Origin: Candidatus Nomurabacteria bacterium GW2011_GWB1_40_7
GTDB taxonomy: Bacteria > Patescibacteriota > Minisyncoccia > Phycocordibacterales > UBA9973
Assembly (NCBI GenBank): GCA_000994705.1
Contig: LBZL01000003.1
Span: forward strand, 10,215 to 70,657
Reading direction: 5' to 3'
Length of the DNA: 60,443 nt
A model generated the notes under the pieces. It was given only the letters and a program-made list of their open reading frames with translations. It searched no databases and was not told the origin of the DNA. Numbering within the stretch: position 1 is the stretch's first letter; the number at the start of each line of letters is the position of its first letter. The position numbers and the translations under genes were made by a program. Of the stretch, positions 1,483 through 58,290 are shown piece by piece.

Positions 1483-1570
1483 ATGGATCCCGTTAGAAAT
1501 GACGTGATACATGTTCCTTAAAGTGTCGATTGTTTTAACATTATTAGCATTAATTTCTAACGGGATGGAT
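1483..1570. repeat. Inverted-repeat element, copy 1 (start-codon-donating)
   Basis: Perfect 14-bp arms ATCCCGTTAGAAAT (1487-1500) and ATTTCTAACGGGAT (1553-1566) enclose 52 bp. The ends match copies at 44255-44378 and 58230-58290 (consensus TCCCGT..GARAT / ATYTC..ACGGGAT). The right arm contains the ATG (1565) that I take as the start of the next gene, so the hairpin would cover its initiation site. Confidence 0.85.
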
Positions 1571-1822
1571 CCTGAATCCAAAAAATTGCTAGAGGAGACT
1601 TATTCTTTAGCGGAGGAAAATAATAAAATGCTACGCGCCATAAGGCGCTCAATGCTTTGGTCACGTATTACGAGTACTTTATATTGGGTACTTATAATTG
1701 GTATTTCTGTCGGGGCTTTTTATTTTATTCAGCCATACTTGGAGCAATTGATGGGTGCTTATAGCGACGCAAAAAGCAACCTTGATAACATCGGTTCTTT
1801 GTTGAGAAAATTTCAAAATTAA
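1565..1822 (+). CDS. Small conserved single-pass membrane protein (CPR family)
   Basis: 85 residues from the ATG at 1565. The N-terminal half is charged and helical (MDPESKKLLEETYSLAEENN), followed by basic RRSMLWSR, one transmembrane helix (about residues 38-60) and a short polar tail. From memory this is a common small protein in Parcubacteria with this same MDPESKK-type N-terminus, which is why I prefer 1565 over the in-frame ATG at 1511 (103 residues). The start lies inside the right arm of an inverted repeat, so translation may be limited by RNA structure. It sits between tRNA-Arg and tRNA-Phe. The function is unknown. Confidence 0.75.
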   Translation: MDPESKKLLEETYSLAEENNKMLRAIRRSMLWSRITSTLYWVLIIGISVGAFYFIQPYLEQLMGAYSDAKSNLDNIGSLLRKFQN

Positions 1823-1826
1823 AATT

Positions 1827-1899
1827 GCCTGGGTAGCTCAGTTAGTAGAGCATTCCCCTGAAGAGGGAAGGGTCGGCAGTGCGATCCTGCCCCCAGGCA
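1827..1899 (+). tRNA. tRNA-Phe(GAA)
   Basis: Acceptor GCCTGGG/CCCAGGC, anticodon stem TTCCC/GGGAA with loop CTGAAGA (anticodon GAA). CCA is not encoded. A terminator hairpin follows immediately. Confidence 0.95.
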
Positions 1900-1917
1900 C
1901 AAAAACGAAGTTTTTGT
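1899..1917 (+). terminator. Hairpin after tRNA-Phe
   Basis: ACAAAAAC, loop gaa, GTTTTTGT: 8-bp arms directly at the 3' end of tRNA-Phe. It probably ends the tRNA transcript, or the convergent hsp20 transcript. Confidence 0.6.
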
Positions 1918-1958
1918 GAGCCGGAGCGCGACGGCGCGAGGTGGGGTCGCGAGATTTT

Positions 1959-2459
1959 TTAGCAAAAAAATACTTGTGACCAAAAGTGTTTCTTAGATTG
2001 ATTTGACCTCTTTTCTTTGTCCACCTTTTTGATTTTGATAGTGAGCAGACCGTGGCGCTCGGTTGCTTCAACTTCTTCCGGTTCCACTTCCGCGGGAAGC
2101 GATATGGTACGGGAAAATTTTCCCCAATAAAGCTCTTTGGCAAAATAATTATCTTCGTCAATCGTTCTGGATTCTTCGCGCTTGCCACGAATGGTAATCA
2201 TGTCTCGAGAGACCGATAGTTCCAAATCTTCCGGCTTAACTCCGGCGACCATTGTCTGAATAATGATATCGGTCGGCGTTTGAAAAACATCAATGGATAA
2301 TTCCGCCTCGTCGTTTTCTTCCTCAATCCAATTATTCCCGTTTTTTTTATCCCCCTTCACTCCTTTTAACAGGTAATCCTTTTTGGGTTCCCCGTGCTCT
2401 TCTTCCATGCCCATACTTCCGGTTAATCTCTCAAAAAAACTTCTTTTTTTATTTTCCAT
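1959..2459 (-). CDS. Hsp20/alpha-crystallin family small heat-shock protein
   Basis: A 166-residue ATP-independent cytosolic holdase chaperone. A variable charged N-terminus (about 1-50) precedes the alpha-crystallin domain (about 52-150), recognised by ELSIDVFQTPTDIIIQ, the GVKPEDLELSV loop, the FSRTISLP strand and the GLLTIKI strand (A-x-x-x-x-G-L-L motif as ATERHGLL). The C-terminal tail after KKVDKEK is lysine-rich and ends oddly in FWSQVFFC, without an obvious I-x-I anchor, so the last residues may be recently altered. It is convergent with tRNA-Phe. Confidence 0.92.
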   Translation of the reverse strand: MENKKRSFFERLTGSMGMEEEHGEPKKDYLLKGVKGDKKNGNNWIEEENDEAELSIDVFQTPTDIIIQTMVAGVKPEDLELSVSRDMITIRGKREESRTIDEDNYFAKELYWGKFSRTISLPAEVEPEEVEATERHGLLTIKIKKVDKEKRSNQSKKHFWSQVFFC

Positions 2460-2487
2460 AAATTTTTTAGTTAATTAATATTAATAA

Positions 2488-3189
2488 TTACTCGCTCATT
2501 CTTCTGACTTTTTCAAAAAGCAGCATAATAATAATTGTAACGACCCACAAGAACGCGAACACTTTCAAAAAATCATTTCCATTATTCTTTATTATAAAAA
2601 AATTAAAAACGCTATGCAAGGCGATGGCAACTAAAAAACCAATAAAAAGATACCATTTTTTCTTCCATTTTTCCATATAAAACGAAAGCCCCATGGCAAT
2701 ACCTATTGTTCCGCTTGAAACAGTGTGCAAAAGAGTGGAGCCGAGAAATCTAAGTTGTCCGAGCGAAGCAATGGCAACCAAACTCGTCGTTTCATTTGCG
2801 AAGAATGGTTTGATTAAAAAAAAAGCGTTTTCCAGCGCGGCAAAACCTAAAGCCGCGGTAATGAGATAAATCGGCCAATCTACCGGTTCATCTGCGTAGT
2901 TTGTTTTATAAAGAATGATTAAAACGGCCAGATATTTCAGTATCTCTTCCGCGCTGGCCCAGAGAATGAGCTCTATTCCCTGCGAGCCTACATAGGATTG
3001 TATTAATTTTTGAACTGGCAAAACGATTGCAACCGCCAGCATGCCCATAATAAATACGATAGCAAGCAATCCTTTGGGTTCGGGATTTTCCTCTTCTTTC
3101 ATCCAAAACCACAGCCACAAAAAGGAAGGAATAATTCCGCCTAGAAATGCCAGAATTAAAATTTTTGGGTTACTTGCTAAGACGGCCAT
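2488..3189 (-). CDS. PrsW-family intramembrane metalloprotease
   Basis: A 233-residue polytopic membrane protein (about seven hydrophobic segments) of the PrsW/CPBP-like superfamily. Signature residues are visible: the EE-x-x-K motif in SAEEILKYL (81-85), GFAALENAFF (115-124), a histidine in STLLHTVSSGT and another in ALHSVFNFF. In Bacillus, PrsW cleaves an anti-sigma factor at site 1; the substrate here is unknown, but a sigma/DUF5667-like pair lies at 27246-28224. The start overlaps the valS stop by 13 nt, so translation is probably coupled to valS. Confidence 0.85.
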   Translation of the reverse strand: MAVLASNPKILILAFLGGIIPSFLWLWFWMKEEENPEPKGLLAIVFIMGMLAVAIVLPVQKLIQSYVGSQGIELILWASAEEILKYLAVLIILYKTNYADEPVDWPIYLITAALGFAALENAFFLIKPFFANETTSLVAIASLGQLRFLGSTLLHTVSSGTIGIAMGLSFYMEKWKKKWYLFIGFLVAIALHSVFNFFIIKNNGNDFLKVFAFLWVVTIIIMLLFEKVRRMSE

Positions 3190-5324
3190 TTTTCAACCAT
3201 TAGAAGACTTTTTTCTTTTAAAGGTAGCATCGACCAAATTTCTTCCGTGACAAACGGCATAAAAGGATGAAGAATCTTTAGACATTCAGCCCAAATTAAA
3301 GCTAAAGCAATTTTTCTCTCTTCCGCTTTCTTCCCTCCATTTTTTATAATTTTTTTGCTTTCTTCTATTATTTCATCAGCAAATCTATGCCAAACATATT
3401 GGTAAATTTTTTCCGAAGCCAAATGAAAACGATAGTTTTCCATATCCGCCGTTATCTCTTCCGCAATTTCATAAAACTCTTTTGTAAGTTTATTTTGAAT
3501 ACTGCTTTCAAAATCGTTTTCATCAACATTGTCCGAAATGAAACGGGTAATATTCCAGATTTTATTCGCAAAATTTTTATAACCTCTGATTTTATCCTCC
3601 GAAATTTTTGAATCCGTGCCCGGGGCCGTGCCGACAACAAGCGCCATACGCCCCGCATCGGCGCCGAACTTGTCCGCTATGTCAAGCGGGTCAATGCCGT
3701 TGTTTAAAGATTTGGACATCTTGCGTCCCTTAATGTCGCGGACGGTGCCGTGCAAAAATACCTTTCTAAAAGGTATTTCGCCCAGAGCGTATTGCGACAT
3801 TAAAACCATTCTGGCCACCCAGAAGAAAAGTATTTCATATCCTGTTTCTAAAACATCTGTTGGATGGAATGTTTCCAAATCTTTTGTCTTTTCTGGCCAG
3901 CCAAGGGTAGAGAAAGTCCACAGACTGGAGGAAAACCATGTGTCCAAGGTATCTTCATCTTGTTTCCAATTATCGTTACCCGGAGTCTTCATTCCAACAT
4001 AAATTTCTTCTTTACCAGCCGTGAGTGTGGTCGAACGATACCACACTGGTACTCGATGTCCGTACCAAATCTGACGTGAAATACACCAATCACGCAGGTT
4101 TTCTACCCAATGGAAATACGTTTTTGAAAAATAATCAGGAATAATCTTGATTTTTTCTTTTTCAAACGGTTCACGCATTAGATCTTTTAATGTTTTATTG
4201 TCGCGTTCTTTAATTGGTTTATTAACATCGATAAACCATTGGAGTTTTGGTAATGGTTCTATTATTCCACCAGTTCGTTCTGCGGTAGAGATATTTTGCT
4301 TCACCTCCTCCTCTTTTTCTAAAAGATTTTCACTGCGAAGCCAACTTACAATAATTTCTCGCGCTTCTGTAGTCTTTTTACCCAGTAAATTTTCTCCGCC
4401 GATAGACATTTTGGCGTATTCATTTATAACTTGAGGCCTAGGAAGACTATGTCTATCAGCCATTTCCCAGTCAATTATGGAGTGTGCCGGAGTGACGCCG
4501 AGCGCGCCGGTGCCGAATTCCGGATCCACTTCTTTATCGGCGATAATTTTTATATGCAAAGGCACTCCGCAAAATATCACATCATATTCTTTGCCGACAA
4601 ACTGCTCATATCTCTTGTCATCAGGGTGAATTGCCACGGCCACATCTCCAATTTTTGTCTCAGGCCTGCTGGTTGAAATAGAAATAGGAAAGTCCTTGCT
4701 ATATTTAAAAGTATAAAGTTTTGCATTGCGTTCTTCGTAGACTATCTCATCATCGGAGATTGTAGTTTGTCCTTTTGGATCCCAGTTCACAATTCTGTTT
4801 CCGCGGTAAATCAAGCCGTCATCATACATTTTTTTAAATATCGTGTTCACCGCCAAATTTCTTTTCTCATCTAGGGTAAAGGCCTCCCGAGACCAATCGC
4901 ACGACGCACCCATTACTCTCATCTGGGATGTCATGATATTTTTGTTCTTTTCCACAAATTCATCAATTCGTTTCAATAGTTCCTCGCGACCCAAGTCATA
5001 TCTGGATTTTCCCTCTTTTTTGTATATTTCCTTTTCAACTTTTGACTGAGTCGCTATAGCGGCGTGGTCGGTGCCGGGTAACCATAGAGTTTTGAAGCCC
5101 CGCATGCGTTTATAACGAATCATAATATCTTCAATCGTTAAAAAAAGCGCATGTCCCATGTGTAATGTTCCGGTAGCATTAGGCGGAGGCATCATTATGG
5201 TAAATGTTTCTTTTCTGTCGTCAGGCAGGTTGTCAGGATTAAAGAAGCCACTTTCTTCCCAGAGCTTATAGATTCTGTTTTCTGTTGTTTTAGGGTCATA
5301 GGGTTTCAGCAATTTCTCATCCAT
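3177..5324 (-). CDS. valS: Valyl-tRNA synthetase
   Basis: A class I aminoacyl-tRNA synthetase that charges tRNA-Val. The HIGH signature is HMGH within PPPNATGTLHMGHAL (about residues 45-60); the KMSKS loop is GRKMSKSLNN (near residue 535); the CP1 editing domain lies between them. At 715 residues it is shorter than the usual 850-950; by position the C-terminal coiled-coil arm is missing or minimal. The ATG lies 6 nt after a TATTAT box, so the mRNA may be leaderless. prsW overlaps its 3' end. It may act on tRNA-Val(GAC) encoded at 11406. Confidence 0.96.
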   Translation of the reverse strand: MDEKLLKPYDPKTTENRIYKLWEESGFFNPDNLPDDRKETFTIMMPPPNATGTLHMGHALFLTIEDIMIRYKRMRGFKTLWLPGTDHAAIATQSKVEKEIYKKEGKSRYDLGREELLKRIDEFVEKNKNIMTSQMRVMGASCDWSREAFTLDEKRNLAVNTIFKKMYDDGLIYRGNRIVNWDPKGQTTISDDEIVYEERNAKLYTFKYSKDFPISISTSRPETKIGDVAVAIHPDDKRYEQFVGKEYDVIFCGVPLHIKIIADKEVDPEFGTGALGVTPAHSIIDWEMADRHSLPRPQVINEYAKMSIGGENLLGKKTTEAREIIVSWLRSENLLEKEEEVKQNISTAERTGGIIEPLPKLQWFIDVNKPIKERDNKTLKDLMREPFEKEKIKIIPDYFSKTYFHWVENLRDWCISRQIWYGHRVPVWYRSTTLTAGKEEIYVGMKTPGNDNWKQDEDTLDTWFSSSLWTFSTLGWPEKTKDLETFHPTDVLETGYEILFFWVARMVLMSQYALGEIPFRKVFLHGTVRDIKGRKMSKSLNNGIDPLDIADKFGADAGRMALVVGTAPGTDSKISEDKIRGYKNFANKIWNITRFISDNVDENDFESSIQNKLTKEFYEIAEEITADMENYRFHLASEKIYQYVWHRFADEIIEESKKIIKNGGKKAEERKIALALIWAECLKILHPFMPFVTEEIWSMLPLKEKSLLMVEKWPS

Positions 5325-5362
5325 GCCTCAATAATATCATATTTACCCGTCCTCTGGCGAGG

Positions 5363-6556
5363 CTAAAGCCTCAAATTACCAACTGCTTTTACGCTATCCA
5401 TTTCCGGGACTTTTTTTTTATTTTTTATATAATTTAAATACCCAGCAACGCCAATCATCAAGGAGTTGTCTCCAGTTAATTCTTTGGGCGGGAATAAAAG
5501 TTTTATTTTACTGCCGGCTTGCCCCGCCTTGGCGGTGGTTATTTTTTTGATTTCATTTTTCAGATGTTTGTTTGCCGAAACCCCTCCGGCGACGATAAGG
5601 GTTTTGATTTTATATTTTTCAATTGCCTTAGCCGTTTTGTGAACGAGGCATTCTATGGCGGCGTTTTCAAATTCGAGCGCTATTTGTGCTTTTGTTTTTT
5701 GGTCAAGTTTTTTTATTAAATTTATATCTCTAATTAAATAAAGAACTGCTGTTTTTAATCCAGAAAAAGAAAAATCAAAATTTTTACTATGCAACATCGG
5801 GCGGGGTAGGGAAATTTTAGCATGAGAAGAAGTAGAAGATTTTTTATGGTCTGGCTGGGAGAGGGACCCAGGGAACCGAGGACCTAAAAAATTTTCTACT
5901 TCTTTAAGGTGCTCGCGTTCTTTTTCTGCCAATTTAGAAATTTGTGGTCCGCCTGGATAGGGAAGACCTAACATTCGTGCGACTTTATCAAATGCTTCAC
6001 CGACCGCATCATCTAAAGTTTCTCCGATGATTTTATAATCCATCCATTTTTTTATAAGAACCAATTCTGTGTGACCGCCGGACACCAGCAAAGAAAGAAT
6101 CGGATATTTTATCTCCGGAATCTCAAATTTTTTTTTATCTTTTATAAAAACAGAAAATATATGTCCTTCCATGTGGTTCACGGACATGATGGGCACTTTC
6201 CATTGTTTTGATAATTCTTGCGCAAAAGTAATTCCTGTCCAAAGTGTTGGTTCCAGTCCGGGACCACAAGTTACAGTTATGAGATCAATAGGATTTTTTT
6301 CTTTTTCAAGTTCTGCTTCTTTAAGTGTTTTTTCTAAAATAATGGGCAAATTTTTTATATGTTCTCTTTTTGCCAACGCTGGGAAAACTCCGCCATGGGG
6401 GATATGAATACTAATCTGTGAAGATACATTGTTTGCTAAAACTTTAAAAGAAGCATTTGTCGCGCTCTCCCTTGCCCCGTCTGAATGGGCGGGGTGAACT
6501 TCCATTATGCTTATTCCCGTGTCGTCACAACTTGTTTCAATGCTCAAGATTTTCAT
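5363..6556 (-). CDS. tsaD: tRNA N6-adenosine threonylcarbamoyltransferase with palindromic insertions
   Basis: Catalytic subunit of t6A37 tRNA modification. The ASKHA fold shows ETSCDDTGIS (residues 7-16), the metal-binding HMEGH (H128, H132), SGGHTEL and the GGVSANKHL motif near the C-terminus. It is 397 residues against about 340 usual. Extra segments map to structured DNA: HPAHSDGARE (residues 21-30) between the first strand and the KVLANNVSSQ motif; about 30 residues before LPRPMLHSKN; and AKAGQAGS near the C-terminus, from a CCACCGCC/GGCGGGG palindrome. Catalytic residues are intact, so I expect an active enzyme carrying tolerated insertions. Confidence 0.94.
   Translation of the reverse strand: MKILSIETSCDDTGISIMEVHPAHSDGARESATNASFKVLANNVSSQISIHIPHGGVFPALAKREHIKNLPIILEKTLKEAELEKEKNPIDLITVTCGPGLEPTLWTGITFAQELSKQWKVPIMSVNHMEGHIFSVFIKDKKKFEIPEIKYPILSLLVSGGHTELVLIKKWMDYKIIGETLDDAVGEAFDKVARMLGLPYPGGPQISKLAEKEREHLKEVENFLGPRFPGSLSQPDHKKSSTSSHAKISLPRPMLHSKNFDFSFSGLKTAVLYLIRDINLIKKLDQKTKAQIALEFENAAIECLVHKTAKAIEKYKIKTLIVAGGVSANKHLKNEIKKITTAKAGQAGSKIKLLFPPKELTGDNSLMIGVAGYLNYIKNKKKVPEMDSVKAVGNLRL
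6472..6497. repeat. Palindromic insertion in the tsaD N-terminus
   Basis: CCCCG and CGGGG arms extended by TT/AA and one G-T wobble. It encodes the HPAHSDGARE stretch that is absent from typical TsaD. The GC-rich arm resembles the intergenic inverted repeat at 6619-6660. Confidence 0.6.
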
Positions 6557-6789
6557 AAAAGTATGGTTTTGGTGACCTAATTATACACTTTGCACGAACT
6601 TTTTTCGAACAAAATCCCGCACCCCGCCACAAAATGTCTGGGGTAAATGAGGCGGGGTGCTAAATGCGGACTCGCCCGCGCGGAAGATCCGCTATGTGAA
6701 AAAGTCAAGCATTTCGGTAAATGGTTTTGGCGAAATTCGGGTGGGGGCTTCCTTTCGCAAAAGAAATACAAAAATGGTAAAATCTTTCT
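6557..6789. other. Intergenic region with palindromes
   Basis: 233 bp between divergent tsaD and the MazF-like gene. It holds a large inverted repeat (6619-6660) and a G+C-rich tract, plus the two promoters: a TATAAT-like box for tsaD on the minus strand and TAAAAT at 6778-6783 for the toxin gene. I see no convincing gene here. Confidence 0.6.
6619..6660. repeat. Inverted repeat, 10-bp perfect arms
   Basis: GCACCCCGCC at 6619-6628 and GGCGGGGTGC at 6651-6660 with a 22-nt loop. The arm is related to the coding insertion in tsaD (CACCCCGCCC on the minus strand), which suggests one element family in both coding and intergenic positions. Confidence 0.8.
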
Positions 6790-7182
6790 ATGAAAGATTT
6801 TGACTCTTGGAACAAGGAAAAGAAAAGTTTAGAGAATGTCGGTCACGACATTCTCGTTTTTCACGAGCGAGAAATTTGGTGGTGCTCAATCGGTATAAAC
6901 CTTGGTGATGAACAAGACGGGAAGAATAAATTGTTTGAAAGGCCAGTGTTAATTTTGAAAAAGTTTAATAATAAAGTGGCTTGGGTTTTGCCGATGAGCA
7001 CCAAACCGAAAGACGGAATCTATTATCATAATTTAGAACATGAGGGAAAAGTATTTACTGTTATTCTCTCTCAACTACGCTTAACAAGTGTTAAAAGATT
7101 CCGTCGATTCGTGAGAAAAATTTCTCCGCACCAGTTTGAGCTAATACAGAATAAATTGGTAAATTTCATAAAAAAGCCATAA
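6790..7182 (+). CDS. MazF/PemK-like type II toxin (endoribonuclease), solitary
   Basis: 130 residues. After a 25-residue N-terminal extension comes the PemK/MazF barrel: REIWWCSIGINLGDEQDGKN (usual form is E-IW-v-DLG...G-E-q-g), FERPVLILKK, VAWVLPMSTKPKD and VILSQLRLTSVKRF. Members cleave mRNA as the toxin of a toxin-antitoxin pair. No small antitoxin ORF lies immediately upstream, where a MazE-type partner would be expected, and downstream is a hairpin. TAAAAT ends exactly 6 nt before the ATG, so the mRNA is probably leaderless. A 24-nt hairpin-forming palindrome (6832-6855) lies in the N-terminal extension. It may be a solitary or domesticated toxin. Confidence 0.82.
   Translation: MKDFDSWNKEKKSLENVGHDILVFHEREIWWCSIGINLGDEQDGKNKLFERPVLILKKFNNKVAWVLPMSTKPKDGIYYHNLEHEGKVFTVILSQLRLTSVKRFRRFVRKISPHQFELIQNKLVNFIKKP
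6832..6855. repeat. In-frame palindrome in the MazF-like gene
   Basis: Perfect 10-bp arms GAGAATGTCG and CGACATTCTC with loop gtca, encoding part of the N-terminal extension (ENVGHDIL) and not the toxin core. Confidence 0.75.
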
Positions 7183-7189
7183 AACGAAC

Positions 7190-7211
7190 GAAGCCCCCTT
7201 GCGGGGGCTTC
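7190..7211. terminator. GAAGCCCCC hairpin after the MazF-like gene
   Basis: GAAGCCCCC-ttgc-GGGGGCTTC, 9-bp perfect stem 8 nt after the stop. A T-tract is weak on the plus strand and better on the minus strand. Confidence 0.6.
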
Positions 7212-7293
7212 TCGGTTGGACTAATGTCCATTTGTATCTCTAGTATAGCAAGCGGTTGCCATAAGTCAAGCGAATATTTGAATACTAAAAAAG

Positions 7294-7302
7294 TGCTATA
7301 AT
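7294..7302 (+). promoter_or_regulatory. Extended -10 promoter, leaderless start
   Basis: TGCTATAAT ends 6 nt before the ATG at 7309, so the transcript would begin at or within a base or two of the start codon. Confidence 0.65.
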
Positions 7303-7308
7303 GACAGC

Positions 7309-7620: not shown

Positions 7621-7665
7621 AATCAAATGACAAAATTGGATAAAATTATAAAATATAGCTGGTAG

Positions 7666-8034: not shown

Positions 8035-8037
8035 TTT

Positions 8038-8457: not shown

Positions 8458-8538
8458 AGATTTCGCAGGATTTATAAATATGCTATATTAAAAATACACC
8501 AAAAAGAGCAATTTGCTAAGTTCGATAGTCGACGCAAG

Positions 8539-8564
8539 CCACATCGCAAGATGTGGTCTTTTTC
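8539..8564 (+). terminator. Rho-independent terminator
   Basis: CCACATC-gcaa-GATGTGG (8539-8556) followed by TCTTTTTC. Confidence 0.8.
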
Positions 8565-8607
8565 GTATATGGGGGCTTTGTATGCTTCTCGTGCTAGCTC
8601 TAAAAGG

Positions 8608-44254: not shown

Positions 44255-44378
44255 ATGGCTCCCGTACGAAATCGCGGACGCGGGACTTCGTCTTTTGAGT
44301 TAAAATGTTTATTGAGTATTAAAAGAGGTTAATTTTTTATAGGTAGGGCGTCCGCGTCCTATTTCGTACGGGATGGAT
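44255..44378. repeat. Inverted-repeat element, copy 2, between atpE and atpF
   Basis: Outer arms TCCCGTACGAAAT (44260-44272) and ATTTCGTACGGGA (44361-44373); inner arms CGCGGACGC (44273-44281) and GCGTCCGCG (44348-44356), with a 4-nt bulge on the right. The ATG of atpF is the last part of the right arm. Likely to tune b-subunit translation relative to c; also a possible transcription attenuator. Confidence 0.88.
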
Positions 44379-44834
44379 TCTATTATCTCCACATTTCACA
44401 TAGATTGGAAAATTATGATTGCGCAAGCAATTAATTTTGGAATTGTTTTTGCCGTTTTGTATATTTTTGCTCTCAAACCGTTAAGCAAGCTGATGGCGGA
44501 ACGAAGCGAAAGAATAGCCAAGGGAGTGAACGACGCGAAAACGAACACAACGCTTCTTCTAAAAACTCGCGCCGAATATGAAGAAGCGCTCGCAAAGGCT
44601 CGGGCGGAAGCCAATAAAATTTTTCAGGATGGTAAAAAAGAAGCTGAAGCTAAAAAAGCGATAATGCTGGAAGAAGCAAAGCAAGAAGTAGCTACCGTTA
44701 TAGAAAACGGCAAAAAAATACTGGAAGCGGAAAAGGTAAAAATGGTAGGGGAAGCAAAAAATGAAATTATTTCTTTGGCAATGCTCGCTACTGAGAAATT
44801 AATTAGCAACAAGCAAGATTTAAATAATTTATAA
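44373..44834 (+). CDS. atpF: ATP synthase Fo subunit b
   Basis: 153 residues: N-terminal membrane helix (MIAQAINFGIVFAVLYIFAL), then a long charged helix (KLMAERSERIAKGVND onward) for the peripheral stalk. Start codon lies in the right arm of a long inverted repeat, separated 129 nt from atpE. atpH begins 1 nt after its stop. Confidence 0.92.
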   Translation: MDSIISTFHIDWKIMIAQAINFGIVFAVLYIFALKPLSKLMAERSERIAKGVNDAKTNTTLLLKTRAEYEEALAKARAEANKIFQDGKKEAEAKKAIMLEEAKQEVATVIENGKKILEAEKVKMVGEAKNEIISLAMLATEKLISNKQDLNNL

Positions 44835-49957: not shown

Positions 49958-49958
49958 A

Positions 49959-50636: not shown

Positions 50637-50640
50637 AAAA

Positions 50641-52617
50641 TTACAGTAAATCCTCCGGATCCACAAAAACCTCAAAAGTCGGCGGAAGGGAAGAAAGCTT
50701 ATTAAAAAGATTTCCGTCAATTACTGAGTTTATTTTAAGTTCCGGCAAAGACCATTTTTGCGGGTCTGTTTTTATCAATGCATTGGTGACATATTTTTCT
50801 TTTGACTGGGCGACGAATCCACTAAAAATTTCAGGAGAATATTCTTCAAAAATCTCTGCCAAGTTTTTTCTTGCCTTGACCGTTTGTTCCTTGTCGCCCA
50901 AATGGGTTATTTTTATAAAACGCTTGAAGGGTGGATAATTTAATTTTTTCCTATCTTCTAACTCCTCCCGCACGAAAGACAGCAGATTTAAAGATTTAAT
51001 TGCCAGAATTGCTTCATCATCTTTGTTTTTTGTTTGAATAATAAGTTTATCTTTTGTACTGTTTATTATGGACAATGCTATCTGTATAATCTTTTCCCCC
51101 ATCTTATAATTTGGAATACTCCAAAGTGAATCAAAAGAAGCGACGACCGAAAGCGAAGTTTTCTGTTTTAAATAAAAGAAGGCCATTTCAGTCCCGATAA
51201 GTATTGATCCCTGACTTTCCTCAAATTCTTGTATTATTTTTTTAGCACCGCTCGCTGTTTTTGCAGACTCTTTGTCCAGTTTAAAAATTTTGGTTTTTGG
51301 CTCGCCCGTAGGTCTATGCCCGAGGGGAAACAGTTTTTTTATCTCTTGAAAAACCGTGTCGGTGCCAATCCCAAGGGGCATTAAATTCCATCCTCTGCAG
51401 TAACCACAGGATATGTCGCCATCTATTGCTCTTTCACATCTATTGCAGACAAACATTCTTTTCTTAGCTTGGTGGGACATGTAAAGTACCAACGGCGCCC
51501 CACATTTTTCACAGCTTACGGTATCACCGCAATCCTTACATGTAGTTATGGTTGCTAGCCCCTTTCTAAGAGAAAAAATAAAAACATTTCTTTTGTTTTG
51601 GAGGGCAAATTTTATTTCTTTTAGCGCTTCGTCGTTAAATATTTGGAATTTTTTATTATCTCTTTTTTCTCTACCCAAAACTTCTATCTCGCCAGTAAAA
51701 TCAATCCTAAAAGATAATGGGTGTAGGGGATTTAGGTTATCCATATCTTTTCTTTCTATTGTTTCGTAGCGGAGCATTTCATCTGCCATGATAAATCTTG
51801 CATTTATTTTTGATGCGTAAATTTCTACGAAAACTCTTAAATCAAGATTCGGCTTTTGAATCATCCTGTAAGCATTTGAATTTTCGTGCTCGAGAATTAT
51901 GGTGCCGATGTCTTTTTTAGGAATAGCTAAAAATGGCGCAGTGCCGATGATTAAAACTGGATGATCCGAGGTCATTATTTTTTCATAATTTGTTAAAATT
52001 TTTTTTGTACTTATTCCACTATGCATAGAAAAGGTGAATTGTTCAATACCTTTTGACAGCTGACTCGCGAATCTTTCTATATCAAATACCGTAGGCAAAA
52101 CTAAATAAATAGATTTACCCCTCGCAAAAGATTCGCGAATAAGGGTTTTATATACAGACATACGGTCTTCTGTTCTGTATTGGAAGAGCAATTTTTCAGC
52201 CCTTAAGTTTTGTTCTTTTTCTAAAATAGCCTTCTTGTTGTTTTTTATTTTTATTATTTTGTCATATTTTTCTATAAGAATATTTGGAATCAAAGATGCA
52301 ATAGCATTATTTTTATTTTGAACAAAATATTTACTGACACCAGAAACGGTATCTAGAAATTCTTTTAAAAAAATAGAAGCCCCCTTATTTTCGATAACCT
52401 TTCTCAGGTTGAAATTCATTTTTTTTATATTGCTTTTCGCTTCTTTCAACTCTTCGCAGGATGTCACTAGGGCAAGTATTTTTCTGTTCTTTATCGGCAC
52501 GGTAACAATGTTGCCTACAGATATATTTAAGCTCGAAAAATAGGTCAAATCGCCCTTCGGTATGCCTTTTTTAAGCGGTATTACAGATATTATTTTCATG
52601 ATTTTCTTGTATTTCAT
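50641..52617 (-). CDS. PriA-like protein with degenerate helicase motifs
   Basis: 658 residues. Aligns by eye with primosomal protein N': 3'-DNA-binding-like N-terminus, a paired zinc domain (CKDCGDTVSCEKCG, CNRCERA, CGYC) and a C-terminal domain. But the Walker A segment that in PriA reads G-V-T-G-S-G-K-T is QYRTEDRM here (LLFQYRTEDRMSVYK), and DEEH is LEHE (IILEHENSNAYRM), so ATP hydrolysis is unlikely. I recall similar CPR homologues. It may be a non-motor replication-restart or DNA-structure-binding factor. A palindromic insertion at 51300-51327 encodes LGHRPTGEP after KKLFP. Confidence 0.8.
   Translation of the reverse strand: MKYKKIMKIISVIPLKKGIPKGDLTYFSSLNISVGNIVTVPIKNRKILALVTSCEELKEAKSNIKKMNFNLRKVIENKGASIFLKEFLDTVSGVSKYFVQNKNNAIASLIPNILIEKYDKIIKIKNNKKAILEKEQNLRAEKLLFQYRTEDRMSVYKTLIRESFARGKSIYLVLPTVFDIERFASQLSKGIEQFTFSMHSGISTKKILTNYEKIMTSDHPVLIIGTAPFLAIPKKDIGTIILEHENSNAYRMIQKPNLDLRVFVEIYASKINARFIMADEMLRYETIERKDMDNLNPLHPLSFRIDFTGEIEVLGREKRDNKKFQIFNDEALKEIKFALQNKRNVFIFSLRKGLATITTCKDCGDTVSCEKCGAPLVLYMSHQAKKRMFVCNRCERAIDGDISCGYCRGWNLMPLGIGTDTVFQEIKKLFPLGHRPTGEPKTKIFKLDKESAKTASGAKKIIQEFEESQGSILIGTEMAFFYLKQKTSLSVVASFDSLWSIPNYKMGEKIIQIALSIINSTKDKLIIQTKNKDDEAILAIKSLNLLSFVREELEDRKKLNYPPFKRFIKITHLGDKEQTVKARKNLAEIFEEYSPEIFSGFVAQSKEKYVTNALIKTDPQKWSLPELKINSVIDGNLFNKLSSLPPTFEVFVDPEDLL
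51300..51327. repeat. In-frame palindromic element in the PriA-like gene (family A)
   Basis: CTCGGGC-tag-rich centre-GGGCGAG: closely matches rmuC 28277-28305, inserted in the opposite orientation relative to the gene. Confidence 0.78.
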
Positions 52618-52647
52618 TCTAGCATAAATGTGTGTTATATTAGCCCT

Positions 52648-53649
52648 ATGGGATTTTTTTCACGTAAATTAGGAATAGATTTGGGCACAGCCAATACCTT
52701 GGTATTTGTGCCCGGAAAAGGCGTTGTTTTAAACGAGCCTTCTGTGGTCGCAGTTTCCGAACAAGACAATAAAATTTTAGCTATTGGTTTTGAGGCAAAA
52801 GACATGATTGGAAAGACTCCTGATTCAATAATCACATATTGTCCAATGAAAGATGGAGTTATCGCGGATTATCGAGTGACCGAAGCTATGCTACGTTATT
52901 TTATCAGTAAAGCGATGGGCAAGTTTAGTTTTTTAAAGCCGGACGTAATGGTTTCTGTTCCTGCCGGAGTCACTTCCACTGAAAGACGAGCCGTTGTGGA
53001 GGCCGCCATTCGCGCCGGCGCAAAGAATGCCTATGTAGTTTTGGCAGCCATAGGAGCTGGTATTCCGATTTATGAATCAAAAGGTTATATGGTAGTAGAT
53101 ATCGGCGGAGGCACGACAGATGTAGCAGTTATTTCTCTCGGCGGAATTGTGGCTTCCACTTCGGTAAAATACGCAGGAAACAAAATAGACGCCGCTATCG
53201 CGGATTATATTAAAAAAACTTTTAATTTGGCGATAGGCGACAGAACTGCCGAAGAAGTGAAAATTAAAATCGGAGCGGCCGTGCCTTTGGAGGAAGAGCT
53301 TCGGGTAACGATCAAGGGCCGGGATTATATCCAGGGTTTGCCACGGTCAGCTCAAATCGGGACCAATGAAATAGTCAAAGCGATAGACGCAGAATTAAAA
53401 CAAGTTATAAAAGCGATCAAGGATGTTTTGCAAGAAACTCCACCCGAATTGGCTTCCGATATTATTGATCACGGGATTATCATGACTGGTGGCTCATCTC
53501 AATTGCGAAATTTTACCGACTTGGTTTATAGAAAAACGGGAGTTAAGGCAACCTTGGCGGACGATGCCCTTTTCTGTGTAGTAAAGGGGACAGGTATTGC
53601 CCTAGAGCATTTAGATGTTTATAAAAAAACTGTGTTAAGTAAAAAATAA
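52648..53649 (+). CDS. mreB: Rod-shape protein MreB
   Basis: 333 residues from ATG 52648. Actin-like: GIDLGTANTLVFVPGKGVVLNEPSV, DIGGGTTDVAVIS (phosphate 2), GGSSQLRNF (adenosine). Guides lateral wall synthesis. TATATT ends 6 nt before ATG. Last base of the stop overlaps the next ATG. Confidence 0.96.
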   Translation: MGFFSRKLGIDLGTANTLVFVPGKGVVLNEPSVVAVSEQDNKILAIGFEAKDMIGKTPDSIITYCPMKDGVIADYRVTEAMLRYFISKAMGKFSFLKPDVMVSVPAGVTSTERRAVVEAAIRAGAKNAYVVLAAIGAGIPIYESKGYMVVDIGGGTTDVAVISLGGIVASTSVKYAGNKIDAAIADYIKKTFNLAIGDRTAEEVKIKIGAAVPLEEELRVTIKGRDYIQGLPRSAQIGTNEIVKAIDAELKQVIKAIKDVLQETPPELASDIIDHGIIMTGGSSQLRNFTDLVYRKTGVKATLADDALFCVVKGTGIALEHLDVYKKTVLSKK

Positions 53650-54392
53650 TGTCTGTCCTGAAACATCTAGATGAAAAAAATTTGCACCACGCATACTTGA
53701 TAGATGGTGCGAGAGATGAAATTATTCCTGAAATCATAAAATTTTGTGAAAGCATAAATATAAAAACTTTTGGTAATCCCGATTTTGTTCATATTTCAAT
53801 TGATAATTTTAAAATTGACGAAGCGTTTGAATTGCGCGCGATGTCTTCAAACAGGGGATTTTCCCCAACTAATAAAAAGATATTTCTGCTTTGCGCGAAC
53901 AGTCTGTCTTTGGACGCGCAAAATGTTTTGCTCAAAATGTTTGAAGAACCAATAGAAAATACACACTTTTTTTTAATTGTGCCGGACGTTAATGCTCTTT
54001 TGAAAACTCTCGTTTCCAGATTTTATTTGATTAAATCGGAAATAAAATCGGGCGAAAATTTCAAAGTCGCAGAAAAATTTATTGCTATGCCACTCCAAAA
54101 TAGAATAGATTTTATTAAAGAATTGTTAACAGAGCCAGAAGAAGACGAAGACCTGCCTGCGCAGGCAGGGGGAAATAGAACAATTGTTTTAGATTCTACT
54201 CGTTCCAAATCCTTAAATTTCTTAAATGCGCTGGAGTTAATAATTCACCACAGGGGAACCCTGTGTAATTACACAGGGTTCCCCTGTGGTATTTTTGAAC
54301 ATTTTTTCAAAGTTCGCGAATTTCTTCGTATGTCGGGGTCATCCGCAAAAAGCTTGATGGAATCTGTAGCTCTTATTACCCCAGTTTTATAA
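53649..54392 (+). CDS. DNA polymerase III delta'-like subunit, palindrome-bearing
   Basis: 247 residues related to HolB/delta' (clamp-loader subunit): HAYLIDGARDEI, SSNRGFSPTNKKIFLLCANSL, AQNVLLKMFEEPIENTHFFLI, LVSRFYL. No zinc module or P-loop, and shorter than E. coli HolB. Two palindromic insertions: LPAQAG (54152-54169) and a 42-bp perfect palindrome (54248-54289) encoding HRGTLCNYTGFPCG. Both lie after the AAA-like region. Confidence 0.82.
   Translation: MSVLKHLDEKNLHHAYLIDGARDEIIPEIIKFCESINIKTFGNPDFVHISIDNFKIDEAFELRAMSSNRGFSPTNKKIFLLCANSLSLDAQNVLLKMFEEPIENTHFFLIVPDVNALLKTLVSRFYLIKSEIKSGENFKVAEKFIAMPLQNRIDFIKELLTEPEEDEDLPAQAGGNRTIVLDSTRSKSLNFLNALELIIHHRGTLCNYTGFPCGIFEHFFKVREFLRMSGSSAKSLMESVALITPVL
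54152..54169. repeat. 18-bp palindrome in the holB-like gene
   Basis: Identical to 47052-47069 (atpG), same reading frame (LPAQAG). Confidence 0.92.
54248..54289. repeat. 42-bp perfect palindrome in the holB-like gene
   Basis: Left half begins CCACAGGGGAACCCTGTG and is followed by TAATTA and its exact reverse complement. In frame; the longest perfect palindrome in the window. Confidence 0.95.
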
Positions 54393-54412
54393 TTTCTGTT
54401 ATAATTAAACAT

Positions 54413-54964
54413 ATGATTTACAACTTTTCAAATTTTAAAACAGCACTTAAAAAAGTAGAGGAATTTTTGGGCAAGGAATATAGTCAGCTCAATATTGGAC
54501 GGGCATCACCAATGATACTGGATGGAGTAAACGTTGAATCATACGGTTCATATGTTCCGCTTAAAAATGTAGCTTCTGTTTCTATTGAAGATCCAAAAAC
54601 ACTGCGCATCGCGCCTTGGGATAAGACTCAAATTAAGGGGATTGAGAAGGCAATAGTGGCGTCAAATTTAGGTCTGTCGGTTGCGGTTGACGACGTGGGG
54701 ATAAGAGTAATTTTCCCTCAATTAACTACTGAAACAAGGCAGACTCTCGTGAAGGTTTTAAAAGAAAAATTAGAGGAACAGAGAATCACGGTACGTAAAG
54801 AACGCGAGGTTGTATTTCGTGAGATTGAAGCGAAGGAAAAAGAGGGTAAAATGACCGAAGATGAAATGTTCCGCGCCAAAGAGGAATTGCAAAAGATTAT
54901 TAATGAAACGAATGGCAATTTAGAGGCAACTTTTGAGAAGAAAGAAAAAGAAGTAATGGGGTAA
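54413..54964 (+). CDS. frr: Ribosome recycling factor
   Basis: 183 residues, RRF tRNA-mimic. ALKKVEEFLGKEYSQLNIGRASPMILD, PLKNVASVSIEDPKTL, PQLTTETRQTLVKVLKEK, RKEREVVFREIEA. Works with EF-G to split terminated ribosomes. TATAAT ends 7 nt before ATG. Confidence 0.97.
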   Translation: MIYNFSNFKTALKKVEEFLGKEYSQLNIGRASPMILDGVNVESYGSYVPLKNVASVSIEDPKTLRIAPWDKTQIKGIEKAIVASNLGLSVAVDDVGIRVIFPQLTTETRQTLVKVLKEKLEEQRITVRKEREVVFREIEAKEKEGKMTEDEMFRAKEELQKIINETNGNLEATFEKKEKEVMG

Positions 54965-54991
54965 AATAATTACGAATTACGAATTACGAAT

Positions 54992-56131
54992 TTGAGCATA
55001 CTTATATTTATAATCATACTTTTAGTTTTGGTGCTAGTTCACGAGGCGGGACATTTTTTTACTGCGAAAAGTTTTGGTATCAGAGTTGATGAATTTGGAT
55101 TTGGATTTCCACCTAAGATTTTTAGTTTTAAAAAGGGGGAGACTGAATATTCCTTAAATCTGCTTCCTCTTGGTGGGTTTGTTAAAATTTTCGGAGAAAG
55201 TGTCGACGAAGTAGATACTTTAGAGGTAGGTTTTTTAGATAAAAAAGAGACTCCTGAAAAAATGGAGTTAGCAAAGCGAAGTTTGGCACACAAACCAAAA
55301 TGGCAACAAGCTTTAGTACTTGTGGCTGGAATCGTTGCTAATTTTTTATTGGCGTGGCTTTTATTTTCCTTGAGTTTCATGTCTGGATTTCCGACATCAG
55401 TTGGTAGCGAAATAGCCGTTAAAGAACTTTCCGATGTCAATCTTGTCGTTACCTCTGTTTTGCAAGAATCACCTGCAGAAAAGGCTGGTCTTAAAACTGG
55501 AGACAAAATTATAGGTATAAAAAATAGCAATGATTCCACAACTGACGTTAGCCCTGAGGCCGTAATCTCGTTTGTTGTTGAAAGTAATGGAGAAGAAATT
55601 ATTATAGAATATACTCGTGGAAAAAATACAGAAATTAACACCACAAAGGTAGTTCCAGTAATAGACCAGGCGGACGGCAGGGCAAAAATAGGCATCTCTA
55701 TGGACCAAATAGGAACGGTCAAATTGCCTGTTTTTATGGCATTTTGGGAAGGATTGCGTCTAGACTGGTTTATGACTAAAGGCACTGTTATTGGGCTTTA
55801 TACGCTCGTAAAAGAGGGTATACAAGGCAATGGGAGCCTTGACGCAGTGATAGGGCCTGTTGGCTTAGTGGGGATAGTTGGTGATGCCTACGAATTCGGT
55901 TTTATTTATCTCATGTCTTTTGCTACGTTAATATCAATAAATCTTGCTATTATAAATCTACTTCCATTTCCTGCTCTAGATGGCGGGCGACTCCTGTTTT
56001 TGTTAATTGAAAAAATGAAAGGATCACGCATTAATCCCAAAATTGCTAATACCGTTAACGCCATGGGATTTTATCTTTTGATTCTTCTTATGCTTGTTAT
56101 TACTTATCATGATGTAGTCAAATTGTTTTAA
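54992..56131 (+). CDS. rseP: RseP-like site-2 zinc metalloprotease
   Basis: 379 residues from TTG. Metal site HEAGH (17-21) in the first membrane helix; a PDZ domain with SPAEKAGLKTGDKI; LDG motif LPFPALDGGRL near the C-terminus; four predicted membrane helices. Cleaves membrane-bound substrates such as anti-sigma factors, possibly the DUF5667-like protein (inference). A short run of GAATTAC direct repeats (about 54969-54990) precedes the TTG start. Confidence 0.93.
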   Translation: MSILIFIIILLVLVLVHEAGHFFTAKSFGIRVDEFGFGFPPKIFSFKKGETEYSLNLLPLGGFVKIFGESVDEVDTLEVGFLDKKETPEKMELAKRSLAHKPKWQQALVLVAGIVANFLLAWLLFSLSFMSGFPTSVGSEIAVKELSDVNLVVTSVLQESPAEKAGLKTGDKIIGIKNSNDSTTDVSPEAVISFVVESNGEEIIIEYTRGKNTEINTTKVVPVIDQADGRAKIGISMDQIGTVKLPVFMAFWEGLRLDWFMTKGTVIGLYTLVKEGIQGNGSLDAVIGPVGLVGIVGDAYEFGFIYLMSFATLISINLAIINLLPFPALDGGRLLFLLIEKMKGSRINPKIANTVNAMGFYLLILLMLVITYHDVVKLF

Positions 56132-56134
56132 TAT

Positions 56135-57229
56135 ATGGAAAAAAGGAAATTGAAAATCGGAGTGCTTTTTGGTGGCAAATCGGCAGAGCATGAGGTGTCA
56201 TTACAATCTGCCCGTAACGTAATCAATTCTCTTGATAAAAACAAATACGAGGTTATTCCAATTGGTATTGATAAAAACGGAAAATGGTTGCTAAATACTA
56301 CTTCTAATTATTTACTAAACAGTAATAATCCAAAACTAATTAAACTAAATAACTCAAATAAAGAAGTCGCTCTTTATGCGCAAGGGGAAGGCGAACTTGC
56401 CCCTGTAAAAAATGGTACAGCGATGAAAGGAAAAATTGACGTAGTGTTTCCTATAATGCACGGACCATTTGGTGAAGATGGCAGTATGCAAGGACTTTTG
56501 AAACTCGCCGGTGTGCCTTTTGTCGGGCCCAGCGTACTCGGCTCGGCTGTTGGCATGGACAAAGAAATCACTAAAAGAATTTTGCGAGATGCTGGCATCC
56601 CGGTTGGGAAATTTGTTGCGCTTAAATTGGGCGATAAAATAAATTTTAATAAAATAAAAAAAGAGTTGGGTTTGCCTCTTTTTATAAAGCCAGCCAATAT
56701 GGGCTCTTCGGTGGGAATAAGTAAAGTTCGAAATGAAATAGAGTTTAAAAAAGCTATCAAAGAAGCTTTTAAATATGACACAAAAATAGTAATAGAAGAG
56801 TTTATTGCCGGAAGGGAAATCGAATGTGCTGTTTTGGGAAATGAGCATCCCATGGCCTCTATCGCCGGAGAAATTATTGCTAACCAAGACTTTTATTCCT
56901 ACGATGCAAAATATATTGATGCCGGATCTGTGGCTGTTATCCCTGCTAAAATTGATAAAAAAACAATGAGAAGGATTCAGGAATTGGCAATCAAAACATT
57001 TCAAGCGCTTAATTGTGAGGGTATGAGTCGAGTAGATTTTTTCTTAAAGAAAAATGGAACTGTTGTAGTGAATGAGATAAATACGATTCCTGGATTTACC
57101 GATATCAGTATGTATCCAAAGCTCTGGGAAGCTAGCGGTCTTTCTCAGGCAAAACTTCTGGACAGGTTGATTGAACTTGCGATAGAACGTTTCAAAAGAG
57201 AACAAAAATTAAAAACCACTGTTAAATAG
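56135..57229 (+). CDS. ddl: D-alanine-D-alanine ligase
   Basis: 364-residue ATP-grasp enzyme. GVLFGGKSAEHEVSLQSA, PIMHGPFGEDGSMQGLLKL, FVGPSVLGSAVGMDKE, FIKPANMGSSVGISKV and VNEINTIPGFT. Supplies D-Ala-D-Ala to MurF (24916). Three nt after rseP. Confidence 0.96.
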   Translation: MEKRKLKIGVLFGGKSAEHEVSLQSARNVINSLDKNKYEVIPIGIDKNGKWLLNTTSNYLLNSNNPKLIKLNNSNKEVALYAQGEGELAPVKNGTAMKGKIDVVFPIMHGPFGEDGSMQGLLKLAGVPFVGPSVLGSAVGMDKEITKRILRDAGIPVGKFVALKLGDKINFNKIKKELGLPLFIKPANMGSSVGISKVRNEIEFKKAIKEAFKYDTKIVIEEFIAGREIECAVLGNEHPMASIAGEIIANQDFYSYDAKYIDAGSVAVIPAKIDKKTMRRIQELAIKTFQALNCEGMSRVDFFLKKNGTVVVNEINTIPGFTDISMYPKLWEASGLSQAKLLDRLIELAIERFKREQKLKTTVK

Positions 57230-57231
57230 TT

Positions 57232-58032
57232 ATGAATATAAAGAATGGACCAATTGGTGTTTTTGATTCAGGCGTTGGCGGGTTAAGCGTTTTAAGGGAA
57301 TTGAAACGTTTGCTTCCCAATGAAAACTTTGTATTCTTGGCTGACCAAATTCATGTTCCTTATGGCGAAAAAACAAAAAAAGAATTAATAGATCTGGCTT
57401 ATCGTATAGCTGACCTATTTATAAAAAAATATAGTGCGAAAATGATTGTTATCGCTTGCAATACTTCGACTTGTTATTCTATTGATGCACTTAGAAAAAA
57501 ATACGCGATTCCAATTGTAGGAACTGTTCCGGCAGTAAAATCAGCTAGCGAAAAAACCAAAAGCGGTGCTATCGCAGTGATATCTACTCCAGCAACTTCA
57601 AAAAGCAAAGTGTTGAAAAAATTAATTTCTGATTATTGTGGCAATGTAGAAGTTTTTAATATCGGTTGTAAAAATCTTGAAAATGCCGTAGAAGAAGGGG
57701 AGATAGATGATCCGCGGGTCCATGATTTACTAAAAAAATATTTAGGAAAAATTAGAAATACAAAAATAGACCATATTGTTTTAGGTTGCACTCATTATCC
57801 ATTTCTTAAAAATACTATTAAAAAATACTTCAAACCGTCGGTTAAGCTTGTGGATGGAGGACTTGCTATCGCTAAGCGGGTTAAATTTCTACTTAAAATT
57901 AATTCTTTAAAGAACAGCAAAAAAACAAAAGGGGAGACTGTATATCTAACCACTGGAAATGCTCTAAAATTTTCAAGAGTTGCAGGAAAATTATTAAATA
58001 AAAGAATAAAGTCCAAGACCATTAAAATCTAA
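57232..58032 (+). CDS. murI: Glutamate racemase
   Basis: 266 residues. GVFDSGVGGLSVLRELKR, catalytic cysteines in ACNTST and GCTHYPF, and PYGEKTKKEL. Makes D-glutamate for peptidoglycan. Follows ddl by 2 nt, a peptidoglycan-precursor pair. Confidence 0.95.
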   Translation: MNIKNGPIGVFDSGVGGLSVLRELKRLLPNENFVFLADQIHVPYGEKTKKELIDLAYRIADLFIKKYSAKMIVIACNTSTCYSIDALRKKYAIPIVGTVPAVKSASEKTKSGAIAVISTPATSKSKVLKKLISDYCGNVEVFNIGCKNLENAVEEGEIDDPRVHDLLKKYLGKIRNTKIDHIVLGCTHYPFLKNTIKKYFKPSVKLVDGGLAIAKRVKFLLKINSLKNSKKTKGETVYLTTGNALKFSRVAGKLLNKRIKSKTIKI

Positions 58033-58074
58033 ATTCGCCTTGCTTTTTTTGGTTTTTTATACTAATCTGTATAT

Positions 58075-58233
58075 ATGTCACAAGATAGACTTATAAAACT
58101 TGGTTGCGGAACTTGCAAGCGCATAAATTACTGGTCCAGTAAAAACAAGAAACTCGTTACTAAGAAAATCGAGCTCAAAAAGTATTGCAAATGGTGCAAG
58201 AAAATAGTTAAGCATAAAGAGGTTAAGAAATAG
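58075..58233 (+). CDS. rpmG: 50S ribosomal protein L33
   Basis: 52 residues: SQDRLIKLGCGTCKRINYW...KIELKKYCKWCKKIVKHKE. Four zinc cysteines (CGTC, CKWC) give the C+ form. Too short for most ORF filters. The TAG stop is the first part of inverted-repeat copy 3. Confidence 0.94.
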   Translation: MSQDRLIKLGCGTCKRINYWSSKNKKLVTKKIELKKYCKWCKKIVKHKEVKK

Positions 58234-58290
58234 ATCCCGTTAGAGATCGCGAGGGCTCGCAGCGACCCTCTATCTCTAAACGGGATAGAT
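58230..58290. repeat. Inverted-repeat element, copy 3, after rpmG
   Basis: Arms ATCCCGTTAGAGAT (58234-58247) and ATCTCTAAACGGGAT (58272-58286, one extra A), inner GAGGG/CCCTC, then a run of T. Here it can act as a terminator; the rpmG stop overlaps its left end. Confidence 0.88.

Follow-up and report, generated by a model that had tools for sequence, protein, structure and literature searches.

Very small inverted-repeat elements of Patescibacteria that insert at gene start codons and, in their full-length form, carry a lone GIY-YIG nuclease gene

Transposons usually avoid or break genes. Known bacterial miniature inverted-repeat transposable elements (MITEs) derive from transposase-bearing insertion sequences, and they resemble in several respects a family of elements present in a 60,443-nucleotide stretch of DNA from Candidatus Nomurabacteria bacterium GW2011_GWB1_40_7 (contig LBZL01000003.1, positions 10,215 to 70,657 of the forward strand; hereafter the window), which is contig C3 of a 548,500-base, 26-contig, 93%-complete assembly (G000). 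Like MITEs, members of this family are short and intergenic, have terminal inverted repeats (TIRs) and short target-site duplications (TSDs), and occur as dispersed non-autonomous copies together with a coding relative. Unlike MITEs, the coding relative, represented by three long copies in the assembly, holds a GIY-YIG nuclease alone (PF01541), and the usual target is a start codon.

Intergenic palindromes tied to one nuclease-type gene also characterize the repetitive extragenic palindromes and their associated tyrosine transposases (REP/RAYT; TnpA-REP, Y1 transposase). Assignment to REP/RAYT was rejected because the element contains no Y1 domain and the sole Y1_Tnp gene found has an unrelated palindrome. 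A RAYT-like Y1_Tnp locus of the assembly (L039, G000 C4:26106-26327), with a 257-aa open frame and the palindrome CTGTGCTAGGCAAGACCTAGCACAG, appears to be a separate REP-like system. With GIY-YIG homing endonucleases, free-standing or intron-encoded, as in T4, fungal mitochondria and the rRNA insertion sequences of the candidate phyla radiation (CPR), the family shares the nuclease domain family, selfish spread and an insertion that spares the host gene, but it differs in having no intron, several unrelated targets, TIRs, TSDs and non-autonomous derivatives. One study reports that the GIY-YIG open reading frames (ORFs) of CPR rRNA genes are carried by insertions other than introns, at sites of poor conservation (PMC11270868). 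These insertions are possibly related to the start-codon family. The nuclease is related by sequence to solved single-domain GIY-YIG proteins of the UPF0213/YhbQ type, the closest being 1zg2 and 1ywl; those are presumably ordinary chromosomal genes of unknown function, whereas the gene described here is a TIR-bounded mobile cistron. HEARO/IscB systems combine an HNH nuclease with a guide RNA and structured ends and are reported to insert at ATGA/GTGA-like sites. The present family is similar in pairing a nuclease with structured ends and in its ATGA/GTGA-like insertion, but it contains PF01541 only and its elements have no Rfam match. Rfam covariance models matched neither any window element nor six element loci (E at most 1), the only matches near elements being tRNA and tmRNA; a known structured RNA or a group I/II intron was rejected on these grounds. 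A phage-borne element was likewise rejected, as no close relative of the nuclease was found in viral_contigs. Among the literature matches listed (titles and abstract openings; open-access, no preprints), there was no description of a TIR-flanked GIY-YIG element or of a start-codon-targeting mobile element. On its anatomy, which joins TIRs and TSDs to a GIY-YIG gene as sole coding content and a start codon as target, the family is rated new in kind.

The site of insertion was analysed in 60 elements defined by their ends, 18 from G000 (three of them nuclease copies) and 42 from twelve relatives, the 39 regions of the relatives having been picked around nuclease-free facing pairs among the matches listed (40 of 72 genomes matched). 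Fifty-seven of the 60 are short. One of 61 pairs, in which two tandem copies were joined, was dropped, and the better of the two ends was kept for each element. The set excludes L017 (copy 3 of the window, one arm of which has a gap) and L018 (degenerate). In the motif used to find the elements, the last A is fixed and the TG after it is left free. An ATG was present at one end, the better one, in 58 of the 60 elements, and it opened an ORF of at least 60 codons in 54 (15 of 18 in G000 and 39 of 42 in the relatives); for a random TG site, being preceded by A and opening such an ORF has a frequency of 5.7%. After L042 was resolved to a 306-aa ORF, 55 of the 60 lay exactly at a gene start, those off the start being L021 and L043 (no ATG), L207 (a tandem copy), L210 (24 codons) and L212 (a 30-bp hairpin). 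The initial annotation of the window, made from its sequence, had suggested that these repeats were exapted for initiation. That view is not supported, since 55 of 60 copies in 13 genomes placed exactly at a gene start constitute the insertion pattern of the family and not an occasional co-option.

Target-site duplications, for which a test had been proposed, were clearly in evidence. An exact 4-bp duplication of the form TGNN flanked 43 of the 60 elements (shuffled-pair mean 10.6, maximum 23 in 5000), and a duplication of 3-5 bp flanked 50. The commonest targets were TGAA (21) and TGGA (18), and the fifth base of ATGNN was A in 80% of 56 elements versus 51% of 45 other starts and was never T; L042, L212 and the two elements lacking an ATG do not enter the tallies of composition and micro-ORFs (56 and 49-53 elements). 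Insertion duplicates about 4 bp (TGNN, best TGRA), mostly within a start codon, and converts ATGAA to ATGAA-[TCCCG...CGGGA]-TGAA, in which the last A of the element and the duplicated TG rebuild the start. The earlier suggestion that an element end can donate a start codon was borne out: the last base of the element is the A of the ATG, and where the left flank reads GTG (L203) or TTG (L220) the right end reads ATG, a replacement indicating that the element donates this A. Taken together, the anatomy, the TSDs and the empty sites described below establish at the level of sequence that insertion rebuilds the start codon.

Empty sites were sought in relatives, as had also been recommended. The topA start was element-free in 28 of 29 relatives. 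In G030 the sequence upstream of topA aligns with that of G000 as far as TACTTA, followed by five or six unlike bases and then ATGAA, the element and one TGAA being missing; in 27 relatives none of four TIR strings was present within 250 nt upstream of topA, and G030 has only the remnant common with G000. In G038 (L279) a different short element is independently inserted in the same topA start codon as in G000. Upstream of topA, L053 and L271 share the remnant ATCTAACGGGAC in both genomes, which may be an older decayed element end. The atpF start was element-free in all 17 readable relatives (29 examined; 12 unreadable because of strand or partial sequence). Elements 82-92% identical to the topA element over nearly its full length occur at other loci in G033, G034, G030, G036, G032, G012 and G014, seven genomes whose topA is only 68-76% identical to that of G000; copies in G017, G082 and G097 were mostly 70-76% identical, one partial copy in G017 reaching 93%. 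Two tandem elements occupy one start codon in L207 (G096 C21, 912-1148), each regenerating ATGAA. The insertions L224/L232, and L030/L227 at gatC-like genes, are old and common to different species, and in L224/L232 the left ATG has been lost and the right ATG kept.

Non-mobile regulatory RNA hairpins or terminators evolved in place would account for copy 3 of the window, a hairpin and T-run after a stop codon, and for copies that seem orthologous between species (L030/L227, L224/L232). TSDs above shuffles, empty topA and atpF starts, similar copies at unrelated loci and in different genomes, the tandem double insertion of L207 and the full-length nuclease copies all speak against such an origin, which is largely refuted by the empty sites and dispersed copies and retains almost no probability. 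The MITE-like mobility envisaged in the initial annotation is, by contrast, strongly supported by the 4-bp duplications, the empty sites, the dispersed copies and the nuclease-coding full-length form.

The family was first seen in three copies in the window, which with their flanks and adjoining genes are as follows.

1483..1487, + strand: left flank ATGGA of copy 1, the original start codon and the left target copy TGGA (1484-1487)
1488..1565, + strand: copy 1, non-autonomous element of 78 bp with 13-bp TIRs TCCCGTTAGAAAT/ATTTCTAACGGGA
1565..1822, + strand: gene MDPESKKLLEE..., 85 aa, from the regenerated ATG (element A plus right-target TG)
44255..44259, + strand: left flank ATGGC of copy 2, the original atpF start, target copy inexact
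44260..44373, + strand: copy 2, non-autonomous element of 114 bp with TIR TCCCGTACGAAAT and inner stem GCGGACGC/GCGTCCGC
44373..44834, + strand: atpF, F0F1 ATP synthase subunit B, from the regenerated ATG; family matches below curated cut-offs
58075..58233, + strand: rpmG-like ORF (named as in the initial annotation), its stop TAG (58231-58233) forming part of the TAGA duplicate to the left of copy 3
58235..58285, + strand: copy 3, short element of 51 bp at a stop codon, followed by a T-run after the right TSD

All three copies, with their common ends, are present where they had been placed, and their interiors are as described except in copy 2, where 88 bp and not 79 bp separate the 13-bp ends. 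The flanks read ATGGA/...A/TGGA in copy 1 and ATGGC/...A/TGGA in copy 2, and the right-end ATGs, correctly taken to start the next genes, are those of the 85-aa gene (1565; a second in-frame ATG lies at 1511, within copy 1) and of atpF (44373). In copy 3 the left end is at the rpmG TAG and the T-run lies beyond the right TSD, as had been noted; its TSD is TAGA (58231-58234 and 58286-58289; flanks ATAGA/...A/TAGA) and its right arm holds one additional A. This copy, at a stop codon, looks terminator-like, and the role in termination suggested by the initial annotation could apply to it alone, as a hairpin plus T-run. A 48-51-bp subfamily, lying off start codons with TSDs TTGA/TAGA, comprises L021, L043:693-740 and window 58235-58285. 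Each of the three copies folded better than dinucleotide shuffles (z -3.5, -4.8 and -5.9 for copies 1-3), and the end motif, at no more than one mismatch, occurred 7 times in the window versus 2.4 in shuffles, a count of 7 being reached by 0 of 100.

The consensus element ends are TCCCGTTAGAGAT...ATCTCTAACGGGA. Across the assembly a 14-mer end pattern gave 12 matches versus 0 for the reversed control, and a 13-mer scan allowing at most one mismatch gave 57 versus 11 for its control, with 22 of the 26 exact matches in facing pairs. Collection of further copies, another proposal of the initial annotation, thereby yielded about 19 inverted-repeat elements, imperfect pairs included (18 plus window copy 3). 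Three are long (278-279 bp) and lie outside the window, on C1, C16 and C26; each contains a single ORF of 84-92 aa, all further frames being 48 aa or shorter. The encoded protein is a GIY-YIG nuclease (PF01541, E 5.7e-18), and the three copies are 95-100% identical and stand upstream of three different genes. The remaining copies, 48-120 bp in G000 and no longer than 203 bp in relatives, have the ends and lack the gene, and look like non-autonomous derivatives of the nuclease element. In an 18-sequence alignment of one short-copy class, the inner stems paired better within copies than between them (mean 6.3 vs 5.0; maximum 6.0 in 1000 between-copy swaps).

The closest named relatives of the nuclease, among the matches listed, belong to Nomurabacteria and other Patescibacteria. 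In the best 80 of 247 named loci the ends were found in 76 and not found in 4. The full-length form is mostly about 274-285 bp, with 13-bp TIRs and one cistron encoding a nuclease of about 84-96 aa. Among nuclease loci with distinct matched proteins (loci with an identical matched protein being skipped), facing ends agreeing at 10 or more of 13 positions were found in 90 and not in 9, the latter including L151 and L153, in which an inverted repeat was apparent in another comparison. In 29 further loci, at 51-66% identity, the inverted repeat exceeded all 20 shuffles in 15 and did not in 14. Left and right ends covary, both at position 1 (T/T 67, C/C 19, T/C 3, A/A 1) and at positions 7 (A/A 5) and 8 (C/C 5). 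TIR distance tracks nuclease distance in the 90 loci (Mantel r=0.395, 0 of 2000 permutations), a correlation that could come partly from shared phylogeny. Residues Y17, R27 and E63, which are taken here to be of catalytic type, are invariant in 90 of 90. A sister group (L235, L237, L242) is nuclease-bearing and has CCCCG ends and TTYA...TRAA borders; most copies of such non-T types lie off start codons (3 of 20 at starts).

These elements are likely to be very small transposable elements of Patescibacteria, the GIY-YIG form being autonomous and the short forms moved in trans. The nuclease would cut and insert, recognising the inverted repeats, a role suggested by its being the sole gene of the long copies, by its conserved residues and by the TIR correlation. 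The GIY-YIG gene could instead be a passenger or a homing-type partner, with another transposase of the cell (e.g. DDE) moving all copies. TIRs with short TSDs are typical of DDE elements, the nuclease is missing from many short copies, and some TIR variants in G000 have no cognate nuclease there. This alternative is nevertheless considered unlikely: no other ORF above 48 aa accompanies the nuclease in the long copies of G000, TIR and nuclease divergence are correlated (shared phylogeny possibly giving part), and the sole Y1 transposase gene found in the assembly adjoins a different palindrome. No known transposase was found in the three long copies, no search having been aimed at other TIR-flanked or DDE genes. 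If another enzyme moves the copies, the novelty shrinks to a variant within a known element type.

The position of the nuclease gene relative to the rebuilt start bears on how the host gene is expressed. In the 56 nuclease copies at gene starts, the nuclease stop overlaps the rebuilt start (ATGA, gap -4) in 37 and lies 4 nt before the rebuilt ATG (TAACGGGATG) in 15, the two arrangements together accounting for 52 of the 56. An exact 4-bp duplication was present in 35 of these 56 copies (shuffled mean 19.6, maximum 27 of 2000). Across all 76 loci with both ends, the -4 arrangement was seen in 46, with the target supplying the stop as TGA in 40, TAA in 5 and TAG in 1. Given that the nuclease stop lies at or 4 nt from the rebuilt ATG, translation of the host gene is probably coupled to that of the nuclease. 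One study, on Haloferax and E. coli, found strict coupling for 13 of the 14 overlapping gene pairs of ATGA type that it tested (PMC6728339). The upstream ATG and the host initiation signals remain ahead of the element, and translation of the host gene would continue by termination-reinitiation after the nuclease stop. In short copies this role may fall to micro-ORFs that terminate at the TAA 4 nt before the rebuilt ATG, or the hairpin may bring upstream signals near. Micro-ORFs that begin with ATG, span 10 or more codons and stop at the right-repeat TAA were present in 19 of 49 short copies (shuffled mean 4.0, maximum 11 of 500; 3 and 0 in the other two frames), copies that are not independent because some are related to each other.

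A different way of sparing the host gene would be removal at the RNA level, by splicing or ribosome bypass from the left to the right ATG, with the gene starting at the left ATG. Phage T4 gene 60 and mitochondrial byp elements are analogues of such bypass, and a strong hairpin between two copies of one short sequence is in keeping with it. The right ATG, however, is present in 58 of 60 elements (better end kept) and 9 of 60 lack the left ATG, including the gene-start insertions L042, L224 and L232; retention of the right ATG and occasional loss of the left make the former look like the functional start. There was also no Rfam intron or ribozyme match in six loci, and removal of this kind is judged highly improbable.

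The preference for start codons was considered against the sites available. Of 44 non-coding ATG[AG]A sites in the window, the ORF calls of this study place 25 at gene starts (57%) and 19 elsewhere. With coding insertions purged, 57% would be expected at starts, whereas 54 of 60 elements are found there (binomial P=2.4e-8), and no more than 3 of the 60 have at their end an ATG that opens no long ORF (the L207 tandem copy, L210 and L212). A simple sequence preference is thus insufficient; start regions may be recognised, or some further factor may remove insertions elsewhere. The bias would reflect a TGRA preference combined either with survival of gene-sparing insertions or with active recognition of start regions. 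Targeting of leaderless promoters was rejected, with a -10-like motif (at most one mismatch) preceding 28 of the 56 inserted starts and 23 of the 45 other gene starts.

That the bias is pure survivorship, near-random TGNN insertion with only working starts retained, is judged an even proposition. Among nuclease copies with a T-type TIR, a gene start lies at the right end in 59 of 70 and at the left in 0, whereas copies with other TIR types (19 with C and one with A at the first base) have a gene start in 3 of 20; a C-type end would make GTG, not ATG. This contrast favours selection. In none of the 90 nuclease copies was a gene start present at the left end only, and the 62 of 62 at gene starts are co-oriented with the gene, as if needing its initiation signals. 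In addition, no strong upstream motif separates inserted from ordinary gene starts. On the other side, non-start ATG[AG]A sites, almost as numerous in the window as starts (19 vs 25), would be expected to tolerate insertion, whereas 55 of 60 elements are at starts; and short copies, which make up 57 of the 60 and need no expression, have the same bias, which favours targeting.

Several observations weigh against the reading of the family as nuclease-driven elements adapted to start codons. The TSD is inexact in 17 of 60 elements, 28 of 90 TIR-bearing nuclease copies are at no gene start, and sequence preference alone falls short of the start bias, given the 19 of 44 non-start sites. Just 22 of 56 copies have their left start codon in the reading frame of the nuclease (in G000 one of three, reading MDPVRD...). 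Thirty of 49 short copies are without a micro-ORF of at least 10 codons ending at TAA, so that coupling is not the whole story for short copies, and in those 30 the host gene would have to depend on the hairpin or be initiated directly. Short copies of the ACG type occur in G000, where the 93%-complete assembly contains nucleases of the TAG type only. The association between nuclease-bearing genomes and TIR counts over 72 genomes (30,4 / 12,26) is partly circular because nuclease copies themselves carry the TIR pattern. We know of no precedent for a 4-bp duplication made by a lone GIY-YIG domain, and both transposition and nuclease activity are predictions from sequence. A stronger form of the proposal, held tentatively and at slightly less than even weight, is a minimal transposon class in which a single-domain GIY-YIG transposase of ~90 residues recognises start codons, either directly or by way of initiation or transcription structure, and is translated from the host start, the target supplies the TGA stop, the last base of the element rebuilds the start, and insertion into essential genes is close to neutral.

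The genes occupied include rpsS, rplV, rplE, rpsL, rpsJ, infA, rplD, topA, atpF, glyA, ligA and metG. Proteins read from the rebuilt ATG had an NCBIfam match (E at most 1e-5) in 17 of 20 cases, with best alignments beginning at residues 1-17. Twelve were above the curated cut-off (S19, L22, L5, S12, S10, IF-1, L4, SHMT, TopA, L31, GatC and PurC) and five below it (ATP synthase B, a phosphoribosyltransferase, LigA, MetG and MurG, the last three being cut by the locus end); the 3 of 20 without an NCBIfam match include the 85-aa window protein (1565..1822). As judged from these alignments, the rebuilt starts are real gene starts. In G030 C8 (L229, L230), three elements lie within about 3.7 kb, occupying the rpsS, rplV and rplE start codons. 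The nuclease copies L028, L055, L060, L063, L064 and L088 recur at a ATGCAATT(C/T)AAAGT start in several genomes; the gene at this start in L028 reads MQFKVPQ..., and shared descent and repeated insertion are both candidate explanations.

Relatives of the nuclease (E at most 1e-10) were found in 77 of 120 close relatives and in 135 of 286 genomes sampled over the Patescibacteria phylum, although not every relative counted need be a TIR element. Matches (best of 247) were also present in records labelled Omnitrophica, Planctomycetes, Woesearchaeota and others, which may represent transfer or misbinning.

The start codons that the family occupies belong to genes for ribosomal proteins, TopA, LigA and IF-1. 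It apparently inserts at the most sensitive spot of a gene without breaking it, and it survives there because the codon is rebuilt at the junction. Should the nuclease prove to be the mover, the system would rank with the smallest known to transpose and, to our knowledge, would be the first driven by a GIY-YIG nuclease, and its ATG-proximal target could possibly be useful for start-codon tagging. If true, the reading would explain a common orphan family with a relative in 135 of 286 Patescibacteria genomes: many small GIY-YIG genes of Patescibacteria may be mobile elements and not repair genes. The annotation of start sites in these genomes is affected as well.

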